From Actinomycetota bacterium (GTDB taxonomy: Bacteria > Actinomycetota > Acidimicrobiia > Acidimicrobiales > Ilumatobacteraceae): a stretch of 64,000 bases of DNA. The stretch spans positions 1-64,000 of the forward strand of contig WLIV01000011.1 of NCBI GenBank assembly GCA_009702045.1. Direction: 5' to 3'. A program made the translations under genes and the position numbers. Below are positions 7,627-12,962 of this stretch, piece by piece (positions within the stretch are counted from its first letter, which is position 1; the number at the start of each line of letters is the position of its first letter). The notes beneath the pieces are model-generated. The model saw only the letters and a list, made by a program, of their open reading frames with translations. It made no database searches and was not told where the DNA came from.

Positions 7627-8895
<1,269 letters not shown>

Positions 8896-9020: not shown

Positions 9021-10364
9021 TCAGAGCGGTGTGTTGTCATGGGGGCGCGGCTGGATGCGCTCGCGCTTGTCGATCAACATCCGCAATGCCTCGCCGATGA
9101 TCTGGCGCGTCTCCGCCGGTTCGACGACGGCATCGACGTAGCCGCGTTCGGCGGCGATGTATGGGTTCAGCAACCGTTGGCTGTAGTCGGCTTCGAATGC
9201 AGCACGTTCCTCAGGTGTGGCTCGGCGCTGCAGGATCGCTGCAGCCTGACCGGCACCCATGACCGCCAGCTCGGCCCATGGCCATGCCAGGCACAGGTCG
9301 TTGCCCATCTTCTTGGAATCCATCACAATGTACGCGCCGCCGTAGCTCTTGCGCAGGATCACGCAGATACGGGGCACGGTGGCTCTGCCGTAGGCGAACA
9401 CGAGCTGGGCACCGTGGCGGATCATGCCGCGCCACTCGAGGTCTTTGCCGGGGTAGAAGCCCGGCGTGTCGACGAGGGTGATGATCGGCAGGTTGAACGC
9501 ATCGCACATGGTGACGAAGCGGGCAGCCTTCTGCGATGCCGGAATGTCGAGCGTGCCGGCGAGCGCGAGCGGCTGATTGGCGACCACACCAACCGGCATG
9601 CCGCCGATGGTGGTGAGCGCCGTGACCACATTGCTGGCCCACCGTGGGCGCAACTCCAACAGATCGCTATCGTCGGCCAATGCCCGAATGACCGACCTGA
9701 CGTCGTAGCTGCCGGTCGACGACGCCGGGATCAGCGTGCCCGCTTCCGGTGTCTGTCGCTCGATTTCGTCGTCGGTGGGCCAGGTGGGTGGCTCCTCGTC
9801 GTTGTGCTGTGGGAAGTACGACAAGATCTGTCCGGCGGTTTCGATCGCCGATTCGAGATCGGCGGCGACGAGCGTGGCTGCACCGCTGTAGCGAGCGTGG
9901 CTCGTCGCTCCGCCCAGTTCGTCGTTGTCCATGACGACTCCGGTGAACTCAGCCACCATCGTCGGTCCGCTGACGAATGCGTACGCGCCTTCGGTCATCA
10001 CGACATGGTCGGCGATGCCCAGGAGCAGCGCTGGGCCAGACACAGCTGGGCCATCGACGATCAGAATGCTGGGAACCACGCCCGAGCAATCGGTCAGCGC
10101 CTTGGCGGCGCGTCCCCAACCATGGAGCGCGGAGAATCCCTCGACGATGTCGGCTCCGCTGGAACGCAGGACTCCGATGAGCGGCAGCCGCTGGGTGACG
10201 GCGGTGACAGCGGCGATCTCCAGCATGGATGACGCCTCACTGGTGAGCGCACCCTTGCGATCGGTGGCATCGACCTCGACCCATACCACGTCGCGCCCCT
10301 CGAACTGCCGGACGTCGGCGCGTACGGATCCGGGGACCTTGCTGCGGAGTGCGATGTCAGCCAT
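9021..10364 (-). CDS. Acyl-CoA carboxylase carboxyltransferase (beta) subunit
   Basis: Carboxyltransferase of the PCCB/AccD family, moving a carboxyl group from biotin to an acyl-CoA. Both crotonase-like halves are present: the N half with SSGADIVEGF and GPALLLGIADHVVM, the C half with DTPGFYPGKDLEWRGMIRHGA, SYGGAYIVMDSKKMG and WPWAELAVMGA. At 447 residues it is about 70-80 shorter than usual at the N-terminus, beginning directly in the first catalytic half. No biotin carboxylase or carrier gene is nearby, so a partner must be encoded elsewhere. The acyl-CoA (acetyl, propionyl or other) cannot be decided. It is upstream of gltA on the same strand. Confidence 0.88.
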   Translation of the reverse strand: MADIALRSKVPGSVRADVRQFEGRDVVWVEVDATDRKGALTSEASSMLEIAAVTAVTQRLPLIGVLRSSGADIVEGFSALHGWGRAAKALTDCSGVVPSILIVDGPAVSGPALLLGIADHVVMTEGAYAFVSGPTMVAEFTGVVMDNDELGGATSHARYSGAATLVAADLESAIETAGQILSYFPQHNDEEPPTWPTDDEIERQTPEAGTLIPASSTGSYDVRSVIRALADDSDLLELRPRWASNVVTALTTIGGMPVGVVANQPLALAGTLDIPASQKAARFVTMCDAFNLPIITLVDTPGFYPGKDLEWRGMIRHGAQLVFAYGRATVPRICVILRKSYGGAYIVMDSKKMGNDLCLAWPWAELAVMGAGQAAAILQRRATPEERAAFEADYSQRLLNPYIAAERGYVDAVVEPAETRQIIGEALRMLIDKRERIQPRPHDNTPL

Positions 10365-10375
10365 CGGGGGAGAGA

Positions 10376-11314
10376 CTAGACAGCGCGGTGGGCTGACACC
10401 GCTTCGGGTCCGATGTGCACGCCGGGTTGCTCAGCGCCCTGTGAGGCGATGACTTCGCGCAGCACTGCCAGCGCGGCGCGGGTGGGAGCGCCAGGGGCAG
10501 GCCGCCGGCGCTGCACCCAGCCCACCACACGACGCGGCAGTTCTGGGACGCCGACCCTCTTGAAGTCCGCCTTCAACCACCGCGGCACCGCGGTCGCCGG
10601 CACGATCGTGGCGCCGAACCCTTCGAACGCCAGCGATGTGAGCAGGCGGACGCCATCGATCTCCACCTGCGCCTGCAACTCGACGCCGGCGTTCCCGGCG
10701 GAGCGGTCGATCATCCGGCGAAGCGCAGTGCCTCGTGGCGGCAACATCAGCGGCTCGACGGCGAGCTCCGCCAGCGTCACCGTGTCGCGTCCGGCCAGGT
10801 GGTGGCTGCCGTGCATCAACAGCACCAGGTCTTCGGAGAACAGCGGTTCGACCTCTACTTCGGGCTCGTCAACCGGCAGGTGCAAGATGGCGGCGTCGAT
10901 GTAGCCGGCGAGCAATCGGGGGAGCAGGTTGGTGGTGTTTCCCTCGTGCACGGTGACATGTACTAACGGGTGCTGCTTCGCCGCCTGAGTGAGCAGCTGC
11001 GGCAGGATCCAGCGGGCCGTGGTGCCGATCACGCCCAGGCGGGTATCGCCGCGCACCTCGTCACCTCGGGATGCCATGTCGGCAGCGATGTCGTCCAGTT
11101 CGTGCAGTACCCGACGGGCGCGCTCGACCACCATGGCGCCATCCTCGGTGAGCGTGCCGCGTTGGCGGTCGACGAGCGTGACGCCTAGTTCCCGTTCCAG
11201 CCGGGCGATGTGCCCGCTGACGTTGGACTGGACGGTGTAGAGCGCCCGTGCGGCAGCGGAGAACGATCCGTGGTCGGCGATTGCCACGAGGCTGTTCAGC
11301 TGCCGGAGGTCCAT
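10376..11314 (-). CDS. LysR-type transcriptional regulator
   Basis: A 312-residue regulator from ATG 11314. The N-terminal winged helix-turn-helix reads MDLRQLNSLVAIADHGSFSA then AAARALYTVQSNVSGHIARL, the canonical LysR pattern, followed by an effector-binding domain (about 90-295) of the periplasmic-binding fold. It lies 11 bp upstream of the carboxyltransferase gene on the same strand, so that gene may be in its operon. The 5' side faces the 6C RNA promoter, and LysR regulators often act on divergent units. The effector is unknown. An upstream frame to 11410 would cross the 6C RNA and is rejected. Confidence 0.92.
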   Translation of the reverse strand: MDLRQLNSLVAIADHGSFSAAARALYTVQSNVSGHIARLERELGVTLVDRQRGTLTEDGAMVVERARRVLHELDDIAADMASRGDEVRGDTRLGVIGTTARWILPQLLTQAAKQHPLVHVTVHEGNTTNLLPRLLAGYIDAAILHLPVDEPEVEVEPLFSEDLVLLMHGSHHLAGRDTVTLAELAVEPLMLPPRGTALRRMIDRSAGNAGVELQAQVEIDGVRLLTSLAFEGFGATIVPATAVPRWLKADFKRVGVPELPRRVVGWVQRRRPAPGAPTRAALAVLREVIASQGAEQPGVHIGPEAVSAHRAV

Positions 11315-11349
11315 CACGAAAAACGATACCAAGTATCCGCGATTACTGC

Positions 11350-11378
11350 TTGAAAGATCACTCGCGCTCGTGCATACT
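11350..11378 (+). promoter_or_regulatory. Sigma70-type promoter of the 6C RNA
   Basis: TTGAAA at 11350-11355 and CATACT at 11373-11378 are spaced by exactly 17 bp. The expected transcription start is about 11385, just before the first 6C hairpin. The promoter lies between the divergent LysR gene and the HAD-acyltransferase gene. Confidence 0.7.
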
Positions 11379-11384
11379 TTCACA

Positions 11385-11500
11385 TGTAATCGAAGCGGAT
11401 CATCCCCCAATGATCCGCTCGACAGAACCCCACAATGTGGCTCCCCCAGCCACAGGGTTCAAGGTTGAGAGGCCCCGGCTCCCCCAGTCGGGGCCTTTCC
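11385..11500 (+). ncRNA. 6C small RNA (actinobacterial C-rich-loop sRNA)
   Basis: Two hairpins with C-rich loops occur in tandem. The first has a perfect 10-bp stem (11394-11403 with 11410-11419) and loop CCCCCA. The second has inner stem TGTGGCT/AGCCACA around CCCCC (11443-11447) and outer stem GAACCC/GGGTTC with a 5-nt bulge. A terminator hairpin, also with a C-rich loop, follows. This is the layout of 6C RNA, a family known from actinobacteria such as Streptomyces and Mycobacterium, thought to act on mRNAs through its C-rich loops. As I recall, the mycobacterial copy also lies beside a HAD hydrolase gene, as here. The loops hold five rather than six consecutive C. The ends are inferred from the promoter and terminator. 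Confidence 0.85.
11470..11500 (+). terminator. Intrinsic terminator of the 6C RNA
   Basis: AGGCCCCG (11470-11477) pairs with CGGGGCCT (11489-11496) around an 11-nt C-rich loop and runs into TTTCCC. The U-tract is short. Some read-through into the HAD-acyltransferase gene starting at 11523 is possible. Confidence 0.7.
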
Positions 11501-11522
11501 CGTTCTCCACTAGGGTTGTGCC

Positions 11523-12962
11523 GTGACCACGGGCGCAGCGTTCTTCGACCTCGACCGAACCCTGTTGGCAGGCGCCTCGGGCGAGGTCTTCGCCAGCGCA
11601 ATGCGTGAGGCCGGTATCGGCGGTGGGCCCTTCCCTGGAGAAAAGACGCTGTTCGCGCTGTTCAACCGCATCGGCGAGACCTTGCCATCGATGTTGCTGG
11701 CTCGCCAGGCCGTGGGGATGGCCAAAGGTCATTCGCAGGCCGCCACCCGCGCTGCGGCGGCCAAGGTGGCACCTCAGCTGGCGGCGATGGTGCAGCCGTT
11801 GGCAGCTCCGTTGTTTGCCGAGCACCGCGCCGCGGGGCGCAAGGTAGTGCTGGCCACGACGACGCCGCACGATCTGGTGCAACCGCTGGCCGAGTTGCTG
11901 GGGATGGACGATGTGGTGGCCACGCGGCACCGAGTGCACGACGATGGCATCTACGACGGCTCGCTCGACGGGCCGTTCGTGTGGAGTGGCGGCAAGCTGG
12001 CTGCCGTGCGCTCGTGGGCGGAGGCCCACGGGGTCGACCTGACGGAGAGCTATGCCTACTCCGACAGTGTGTTCGACACTCCATTGTTGGCGGCCGTGGG
12101 GCACCCGTTCGTCGTCAACCCCGATCCGCGGATGGCGGTGATGGCGGCTGCCCGCCGGTGGCCGGTGATCGACCTTGCTCGTGGAGGCTCAGGTGTGGCG
12201 CGGATTCCGGTGGTGAACCTCGAGATCCAGCGTCTGGCGCTGAGCTGTGTGCACCCAGTGCTGTTCCCGTATGCCAAGTTCCGCATCGAGGGCCTCGAGA
12301 ACTTGCCGACTGAGGGTCCGGCCATCATTGTCGGCAACCACCGCAGCTACTTCGATCCTGTAGCCATCGCAATGGCAATCGCGCGTACGAACCGCACGGT
12401 GCGCTTCCTCGGGAAGAAGGAAGTGTTCGACGCACCCGTGGTCGGCCCGATCGCCGCGGCGATGGGTGGCATTCGTGTCGATCGGGGCACCGGCGACGAA
12501 GGGCCGCTCGCCGCCGCTGCCGAGGCGTTGGCCGCCGGCGATCTGGTGGCGCTGATGCCACAGGGCACGATCCCGCGCGGGAGGGCGTTCTACGACCCGG
12601 TGTTGAAGGGTCGCTGGGGTGCTGCCCGTCTGGCGGCGATGACGAAAGCACCCGTGATCCCGATCGGGCTGTGGGGCACCGAGCAGGTGTGGCCGCGCTC
12701 GGCACGCTTGCCCGCGCTGCTGAACGTGTGGAACCCGCCCACCATCACGGTCACGATCGGCGAGCCGGTGAGCCTGGTGTATCGCCGGGCCGAGACCGAT
12801 ACGAAGCGGATCATGAAGGCGATCATGGCCTTGCTGCCGCCCGAAGCCAGCGAGCGCCGCGAGCCCACCGCTGCGGAGATCGCCCGGGCATTGCCCGCGG
12901 GTGTTGCCGACGTCGATGCCAGCGCCGAGCACGAAGCGACCCGCCGTCCCGGCACCAACTGA
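11523..12962 (+). CDS. HAD-IB hydrolase fused to 1-acylglycerol-3-phosphate acyltransferase
   Basis: A two-domain protein of 479 residues from GTG 11523. Residues 1-215 form a HAD-superfamily IB phosphatase domain with nucleophile motif FFDLDRTL and a late acidic motif near YAYSDSVFD. Residues 245-450 form a PlsC acyltransferase with the catalytic block NHRSYFD (NHx4D), the GGIRVDRG block and the MPQGTIPRG block (usually FPEGTRS). The fusion would join phosphate removal and acyl transfer in phospholipid metabolism, probably at the inner membrane face. It follows the 6C RNA by 23 bp. The glutamate of the usual FPEGT motif is replaced by Gln, which may alter lysophosphatidate binding. Confidence 0.9.
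   Translation: MTTGAAFFDLDRTLLAGASGEVFASAMREAGIGGGPFPGEKTLFALFNRIGETLPSMLLARQAVGMAKGHSQAATRAAAAKVAPQLAAMVQPLAAPLFAEHRAAGRKVVLATTTPHDLVQPLAELLGMDDVVATRHRVHDDGIYDGSLDGPFVWSGGKLAAVRSWAEAHGVDLTESYAYSDSVFDTPLLAAVGHPFVVNPDPRMAVMAAARRWPVIDLARGGSGVARIPVVNLEIQRLALSCVHPVLFPYAKFRIEGLENLPTEGPAIIVGNHRSYFDPVAIAMAIARTNRTVRFLGKKEVFDAPVVGPIAAAMGGIRVDRGTGDEGPLAAAAEALAAGDLVALMPQGTIPRGRAFYDPVLKGRWGAARLAAMTKAPVIPIGLWGTEQVWPRSARLPALLNVWNPPTITVTIGEPVSLVYRRAETDTKRIMKAIMALLPPEASERREPTAAEIARALPAGVADVDASAEHEATRRPGTN

Follow-up and report, generated by a model that had tools for sequence, protein, structure and literature searches.

In the OxyR-OxyS and GcvA-GcvB pairs, a LysR-type regulator controls a nearby small RNA (sRNA) gene. 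A similar arrangement, with a LysR-type protein governing an sRNA gene close to the one that encodes it, is reported for VtlR-AbcR1 of Agrobacterium (PMC7486931), and the rhizobial RNA NfeR1 (ar14) is described as having three hairpins with identical, redundant motifs and as being activated by the LysR-type protein LsrB (PMC10746234). The actinobacterial 6C RNA, near which the Ms1 RNA is placed (PMC6582537), is described as having two hairpins whose loops typically carry six C each (PMC4046766); for its M. abscessus form, B11, either C-loop is reported to be enough for repression of a target whose 5' UTR carries six G (PMC10470900).

The locus set beside these systems here lies in a window (the whole stretch of DNA analysed) of 64,000 nucleotides. 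An earlier note, made from the sequence alone, had described in it a free-standing "6C-type" sRNA gene of an Acidimicrobiia-like genome. Its coordinates and description of the RNA hold, and its placement of the genome is supported by the named relatives, which include Ilumatobacteraceae, Acidimicrobiaceae and Acidimicrobiales; it had left out the divergent LysR gene, the stable neighbour of the sRNA.

The C-loop sRNA gene and its conservation

The predicted sRNA gene spans about 115-119 nt of the forward strand (11385-11503, both ends being predictions), and its fold has an MFE of -65.1 kcal/mol (z = -8.33), a value as low being found in 0 of 200 dinucleotide shuffles. Direct reading and the fold agree with the note on hairpin 1 (11390-11422) and hairpin 2 (11425-11460), each with a CCCCC loop (11404-11408 and 11443-11447). 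Hairpin 3 (11467-11503) consists of a stem at 11467-11499 followed by a short T-rich tail, and the role of terminator assigned to it stands; the description of its loop as C-rich was too loose, since it is exactly CCCCC (11481-11485), and all three loops thus hold the five consecutive C that the note reported. The promoter it had read, TTGAAA-17-CATACT, is likewise present upstream on the same strand (11350-11378), with the -35 box at 11350-11355, a 17-bp spacer and the -10 box at 11373-11378. The shortness of the T-tail counts against a free sRNA; the gene's own promoter and terminator, together with the comparison of relatives, support a complete, free-standing gene. In the window, the 330 nt that extend rightward from the LysR start contain three hairpins with loops of at least five C, a number that 0 of 100 shuffles of this stretch reach.

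A DNA search of 61 relatives recovered the sRNA at E ≤ 1.1e-6 in 29 genomes (L001-L029, the window's own included), all of the same family. Three of 30 loci were dropped before alignments A1 and A3 were made (L008, with a run of N; L019, at a contig end; and L030, with only terminator-like similarity), and the covariance model R1 was built from 27 of the 29. On the window, itself one of the training rows, R1 matches 11384-11501 with 126.2 bits. The columns of the GGTTGAG that links hairpins 2 and 3 and begins the terminator stem (11463-11469, forward strand) are invariant in all 27 rows of A1. Searched against whole genomes, R1 finds the sRNA in 20 of 25 of the same family, with one match per genome, the window's own genome included; in the five others the match to LysR is truncated at a contig end (G002, G006) or missing at E ≤ 1e-40 (G007, G009, G023).

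Alignment A3 comprises the 27 rows of R1 plus L052 and L070. Over these 29 rows, 92.3% of cells are paired and 31 of 40 base pairs show two-sided changes; none of the pair measures was reached in any of 500 shuffles, and versions slid out of register fall to 34-55% paired. Base pairs were counted in A3 and A4, which are fitted to the model, because a MAFFT alignment misaligned hairpin 2 (19 pairs predicted, none of them in that hairpin); both alignments consequently lean towards the structure, and the slid controls are the guard against this. A wider named set consists of the best 80 of 223 loci matched by the LysR protein, from Ilumatobacteraceae, Acidimicrobiaceae, acIV and related metagenome-assembled genomes (MAGs). 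R1 matches 78 of the 80 at E ≤ 6e-9, with the RNA divergent from LysR; 14 of the 78 share sequence with training rows of R1 and 64 do not. In A4, which holds 71 distinct rows from the named loci, 92.6% of cells pair and two-sided changes occur at 36 of 40 pairs, distributed as 13/13 in hairpin 1, 13/13 in the two helices of hairpin 2 and 10/14 in hairpin 3. Judged by this covariation, the three-hairpin C-loop RNA is real, conserved and structured.

The loops behave differently from the stems. Loop 1 carries a run of five C in 51 of 78 rows and of six C in the other 27, and the run is at least five in 64 of 78 rows for loop 2 and in 57 of 78 for loop 3. Stems drift while loops stay, and the C-loops are therefore likely, on this pattern of sequence change, to be the active parts of the sRNA. 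Pairing in A4 is highest in the terminator stem (98.5% of cells), and no other C-loop hairpin was found in L077, as might hold if the element were structural alone, a terminator or something repeat-like that regulates nothing; given a conserved promoter, three hairpins, a C5 or C6 loop 1 in 78 of 78 rows and a single match in each of the 20 genomes that have one, we consider this reading extremely improbable.

The two named loci without an R1 match, L250 and L254, differ from each other. L254 has loops of C8 and C7 despite lacking the match; L250 keeps the dyad described below and a C6 loop 1, with a run of C11 in the terminator's place, about 100-200 nt to the right of the LysR start. Its sRNA appears degraded, and this could reflect decay or an assembly fault. 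In another relative (G012; L012 1648-1724), the terminator hairpin and its flank are tandemly repeated directly after the sRNA, and a run of N follows. MAG records named Ferrithrix thermotolerans DSM 19514 and Bifidobacterium breve (L195, L198, L201) carry a locus of Ilumatobacteraceae type, and at least the Bifidobacterium name on such a record looks wrong.

The divergent LysR gene, the shared control region and the downstream gene

The LysR-type regulator (10379-11314, reverse strand; Pfam PF00126 and PF03466) is encoded divergently from the sRNA and, across the genomes compared, it and not the HAD-acyltransferase is the constant partner of the RNA. At E ≤ 1e-40, 51 of the 61 relatives have exactly one match to it. 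By sequence its best solved relatives are OxyR proteins, a Rubisco operon regulator, CatM and BenM. The protein contains no cysteine, which makes thiol sensing of the OxyR type unlikely.

Between the two genes lies a dyad, GATACCAAGTATC (11325-11337), a putative LysR-type binding site located 12 bp before the -35 box of the sRNA promoter and 10 bp before the lysR start codon; its pattern is GATA-N5-TATC or close to it. Forty-nine genomes (the 51 with a LysR match minus G002 and G006) were read outward from the LysR start, and in 44 of them the dyad stands 12 bp (34 genomes) or 11 bp (10 genomes) from the -35 box picked by script, the degenerate dyad of G059 being counted among the 44. It was recognised by eye in three more, G051, G052 and G057, the -35 box of G052 being TAGACA. 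Two of the 49, G038 and G050, retain LysR with both the dyad and the RNA missing. In the named set, which overlaps the 49 genomes (15 of the 80 loci are identical to one of them over the first 150 nt), the script pattern detects the dyad in 78 of 80 loci, and TTG follows at +12 in 77 of these 78. The distance from dyad to lysR start is 10 bp in 59 of the 78 and 12-45 bp in the other 19. The dyad is fixed relative to the -35 box while its distance from lysR varies, and it is thus tied more tightly to the RNA promoter; given the 10-bp spacing to lysR in 59 of the 78 loci, it could instead serve lysR autoregulation alone. This candidate site, at a fixed distance from the sRNA promoter, is centred near -54 relative to the predicted RNA start, a usual place for a LysR-type recognition site. 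A dyad-like stretch also occurs without a C-loop RNA in L269 (G280).

In many members of the family the -10 region sits inside a conserved TCACGTGCATACTTTCACATG with a TCACGTG/TCACATG direct repeat, the form in the window (11370-11385) being GCTCGTGCATACTTTCACATG. Such conserved surroundings exceed the needs of a plain promoter, and they perhaps contain the site of a second regulator.

On the far side of lysR and on the same strand, an acyl-CoA carboxyltransferase gene (9024-10364, reverse strand; identified by Pfam) adjoins it, and is found there in 79 of the 80 named loci; a citrate synthase gene (7630-8895, reverse strand) occurs in 67 of the 80 within the flank examined. Their tight retention beside lysR is suggestive of a LysR regulon.

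Behind the sRNA, the fusion of HAD and acyltransferase that the note had read there is borne out by Pfam (HAD-IB PF12710 and acyltransferase PF01553; 11523-12959, forward strand). It is a frequent neighbour, not a constant one. The RNA lies upstream of this gene and is co-directional with it, here and in 50 of the 80 named loci (a set in which contig ends truncate some members). This placement would suit an RNA that forms an attenuator or 5' leader of the HAD-acyltransferase transcript in place of a free sRNA. We regard such a reading as very unlikely: a strong terminator hairpin ends the RNA, and the RNA persists beside LysR in four genomes without a full-length match to the HAD-acyltransferase (G017, G019, G020 and G026) and in G021, where the gene is about 2.3 kb away and the sRNA stays with LysR. 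The downstream gene tested in another order, moreover, is WhiB.

Relation to 6C RNA and to other Rfam families

Part of the designation "6C-type" stands, in that the RNA is built like 6C of hairpins with C-loops; membership does not, the scores of the 6C model RF01066 remaining below its cut-off of 47 bits and the hairpins numbering three and not two. No RF01066 match was obtained in 11300-11600 even at E ≤ 10, or in the 61 relatives under strict filters. The lack of a covariance match over threshold is one of the two signs that the note had named as refuting its claim, yet comparison of relatives shows the RNA itself to be real. Under laxer filters, 40 relatives yielded 12 weak matches, none over the cut-off; the best of these coincides with the C-loop sRNA of G015 (32.3 bits, E 0.016) and another with that of G051 (24.4 bits), and the other ten lie elsewhere. 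Across 296 genomes of the phylum searched with strict filters, RF01066 detected 6C in 29 genomes at E ≤ 0.001, 16 of them over the cut-off, and all 29 lie outside the class. In number of hairpins and length of C-run, the three C5 hairpins of the window depart from the two hairpins and six C of 6C, and members of the order have mostly one to three hairpins with loops of C5-C8 as counted by script.

The neighbourhoods were compared at 25 6C loci, from 30 matches. In 20 of the 25 an HAD-IB gene is encoded opposite to the RNA, in five none was found, and none of the 25 has a LysR match; here LysR is divergent and the HAD-acyltransferase is co-directional with the RNA. The note had taken proximity to an HAD gene as a link to 6C, and this fails, the gene beside our sRNA being a different paralogue, on the other relative strand and missing next to the RNA in several genomes. 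The HAD fusion of the window shows 35.6% identity to the 6C-side HAD (E 1e-29, blastp), whereas a closer HAD-IB of Acidimicrobiia shows 38-41% (E about 1e-50, tblastn; the E-values come from different searches) and stands elsewhere, away from the sRNA. One gene of the 6C HAD-IB neighbourhood we take to be the one named Ssd. In four stretches around the closer HAD-IB gene (L304-L307) we found no Ssd match and no C-loop array, the only C-run hairpins being single ones of C5 in L304 and C6 in L305, with none in L306 or L307. HAD synteny was consequently rejected as evidence for 6C (different paralogue and strand, inconstant beside the sRNA), as was 6C membership itself: RF01066 gave no match over its cut-off in the window, the 61 relatives or the 40 searched more laxly, and the neighbourhoods differ.

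Common ancestry is a separate question. R1 matches 6C at 18 of the 25 6C loci with 17-33 bits, and these are the top 18 matches of that search; RF01066 and R1 thus detect each other's loci weakly, so that the RNAs look alike. The cross-detection by R1 is weak evidence because antisense and merely terminator-like hairpins score alike, at 14-28 bits (28.1 for the antisense of L017 and 25.7 for L030). The sRNA could be a diverged true homologue of 6C, descended from the same ancestral gene with one hairpin gained, and besides these matches, including the two of RF01066 on the sRNAs of G015 and G051, the loops of up to C8 in relatives at order level speak for such descent. We think it unlikely: every RF01066 score is below the cut-off and the window has no match at E ≤ 10, the range of 17-33 bits is unspecific, LysR has no match at any of the 25 6C loci, at 20 of which HAD-IB lies opposite, and the Acidimicrobiia HAD closer to the 6C-side HAD is found elsewhere with neither Ssd nor a C-loop array in the four stretches read. 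The two RNAs share a similar architecture and might be distantly related.

No family of Rfam 15 reached its cut-off on the window. Its best match was RF02344, the ar14 family, over the full length with 28 bits, below the cut-off of 58.8, and with E 0.0013 in a search of 301 nt, a value that would not stand at genome scale. When 18 related loci were scanned with all of Rfam at E ≤ 1, neither RF01066 nor any other family matched the sRNA, and the single match returned was CcsR1 in L058, inside the HAD gene. The widespread C-loop sRNA hence appears to be undescribed in Rfam; among the literature matches listed we found no prior description of this sRNA, and none joining 6C RNA with Acidimicrobiia. 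By these tests the sRNA falls outside 6C and constitutes a new family among C-loop RNAs, one partnered with LysR.

Reach, proposed function and comparison with known systems

R1 is blind to much of the order, giving 0 of 16 in a whole-genome search of other families and weak matches only at extracted loci, and claims at this level therefore rest on sequence reading and a scan for C-loop hairpins. The scan covered the 330 nt beside LysR in 73 genomes (the 49 and 24 more), and found at least one such hairpin in 69, at least two in 50 and three in 20; shuffling leads to an expectation of 5.1 genomes with at least one and 0.3 with at least two. Loops in the other families are mostly C6-C8, with some C5. 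No C-loop hairpin was detected by the scan in L015, L075, L120 or L269 (4 of 73), and the scan misses some, since C6 loops are visible by eye in L015. In other orders, LysR relatives of 35-41% identity, which are candidate orthologues, gave 36 matches, of which 12 were read; a single C-loop hairpin stands beside eight of the 12 (L292-L296, L299, L300 and L303; 1.3 expected) and none beside four. At L294, the sole one of these loci checked by Pfam, the next gene is WhiB (PF02467), and L292 is similar by eye; in these orders the C-loop element may belong to a whiB leader or precede it. As read from these loci, the LysR/sRNA pair occurs throughout the order, and further orders of the class have it in reduced form.

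As to function, we consider it probable that the RNA is a trans-acting, base-pairing sRNA controlled by the divergent LysR-type regulator. The LysR protein would bind the GATA-N5-TATC dyad, centred near -54 relative to the predicted start, and would switch the sRNA on or off in response to a small metabolite, probably one of acyl-CoA or citrate metabolism, a guess drawn from the carboxyltransferase and citrate synthase neighbours of LysR. With its exposed C-loops the sRNA would then base-pair, in a redundant manner, to G-rich ribosome-binding regions in a number of mRNAs and so block translation, as has been reported for mycobacterial B11 (6C) and rhizobial NfeR1.

Repeated loops can also serve another end, CsrB sequestering a protein through its GGA loops. 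By analogy, the repeated C-loops might titrate a C-binding RNA-binding protein, and up to three near-identical loops per RNA, kept identical while the stems change, are compatible with this. The idea seems improbable to us: the script counts just one or two C-loop hairpins in 49 of the 73 genomes of the order, there is no candidate protein, and the C-loop RNAs described by others pair with G-rich mRNAs (PMC10470900, PMC10746234).

For the favoured base-pairing sRNA, candidate targets were sought in the window's own genome and at the starts of neighbour genes. In that genome TGGGGGA-N2-11-RTG has 113 occurrences and its reversed form has 51, the latter being a control weakened by coding bias. 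Thirty of the 113 places were extracted; a filter for open frames left 11 rows (10 distinct starts), and three were examined. The best candidate, L163, has TTGGGGGAA before its ATG; it is not conserved, with relatives in only 9 of 41 genomes, its own included. At about 1500-1520 of L163 (G000:C8:27182-27197), the gene for a 468-aa protein has the ribosome-binding region CATTGGGGGA, which gives a 10-base match to the complement of the loop-1 region of the sRNA, and the gene is a possible species-specific target. Before the starts of neighbour genes (placed by alignment, some approximately), a run of G5 occurs in 0/79 carboxyltransferase, 0/67 citrate synthase and 0/50 HAD-acyltransferase genes, and G4 in 0/79, 21/67 and 9/50, respectively; G5 precedes the lysR start in 3 of the 80 named loci. 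No conserved target emerged from this limited search of own-genome candidates and neighbour gene starts.

A broader reading, which we find plausible though a shade short of probable, sees in these loci a module of the whole class Acidimicrobiia. LysR would keep a divergent C-loop RNA with its dyad and promoter, the gene beyond the RNA being exchanged (WhiB in other orders, HAD-acyltransferase or others here), and the RNA would have grown from one C6 hairpin to three as an independent actinobacterial counterpart of rhizobial LsrB-NfeR1. Some carriers of the sRNA are acIV lineages, which are abundant in fresh water. With a concrete regulator, a putative binding site, an RNA and a loop seed, the role of an actinobacterial C-loop RNA becomes testable in a simple two-gene module.

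Among the known systems, 6C/B11 shares with the sRNA its C-run loops on G+C-rich hairpins, the last of them terminator-like, and its free-standing intergenic position in actinobacteria; 6C has two hairpins, the second terminator-like, in an HAD-IB/Ssd neighbourhood, whereas the sRNA described here has three and a LysR neighbour. The VtlR-AbcR1, OxyR-OxyS and GcvA-GcvB pairs resemble the locus in having a LysR-type gene near an sRNA gene, control being proposed here; we know of no structural kinship between their RNAs and the C-loop sRNA, and unlike OxyR the present regulator lacks cysteine and so would be no thiol sensor of that type. The closest working analogue of the sRNA is the rhizobial NfeR1. 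The alphaproteobacterial family (RF02344) is of similar size (a 123-position Rfam model) and, as described, has a C-rich motif in each of three hairpins whose stems differ in sequence, with transcription activated by the LysR-type LsrB (PMC10746234); the three identical CCCCC loops of the window correspond to these repeated motifs. NfeR1 differs in its loop motif, CCUCCUCCC in place of CCCCC, and in phylum, and the LysR gene is here the immediate divergent neighbour of the RNA. The locus suggests that C-loop sRNAs came under the control of LysR-type proteins on more than one occasion.
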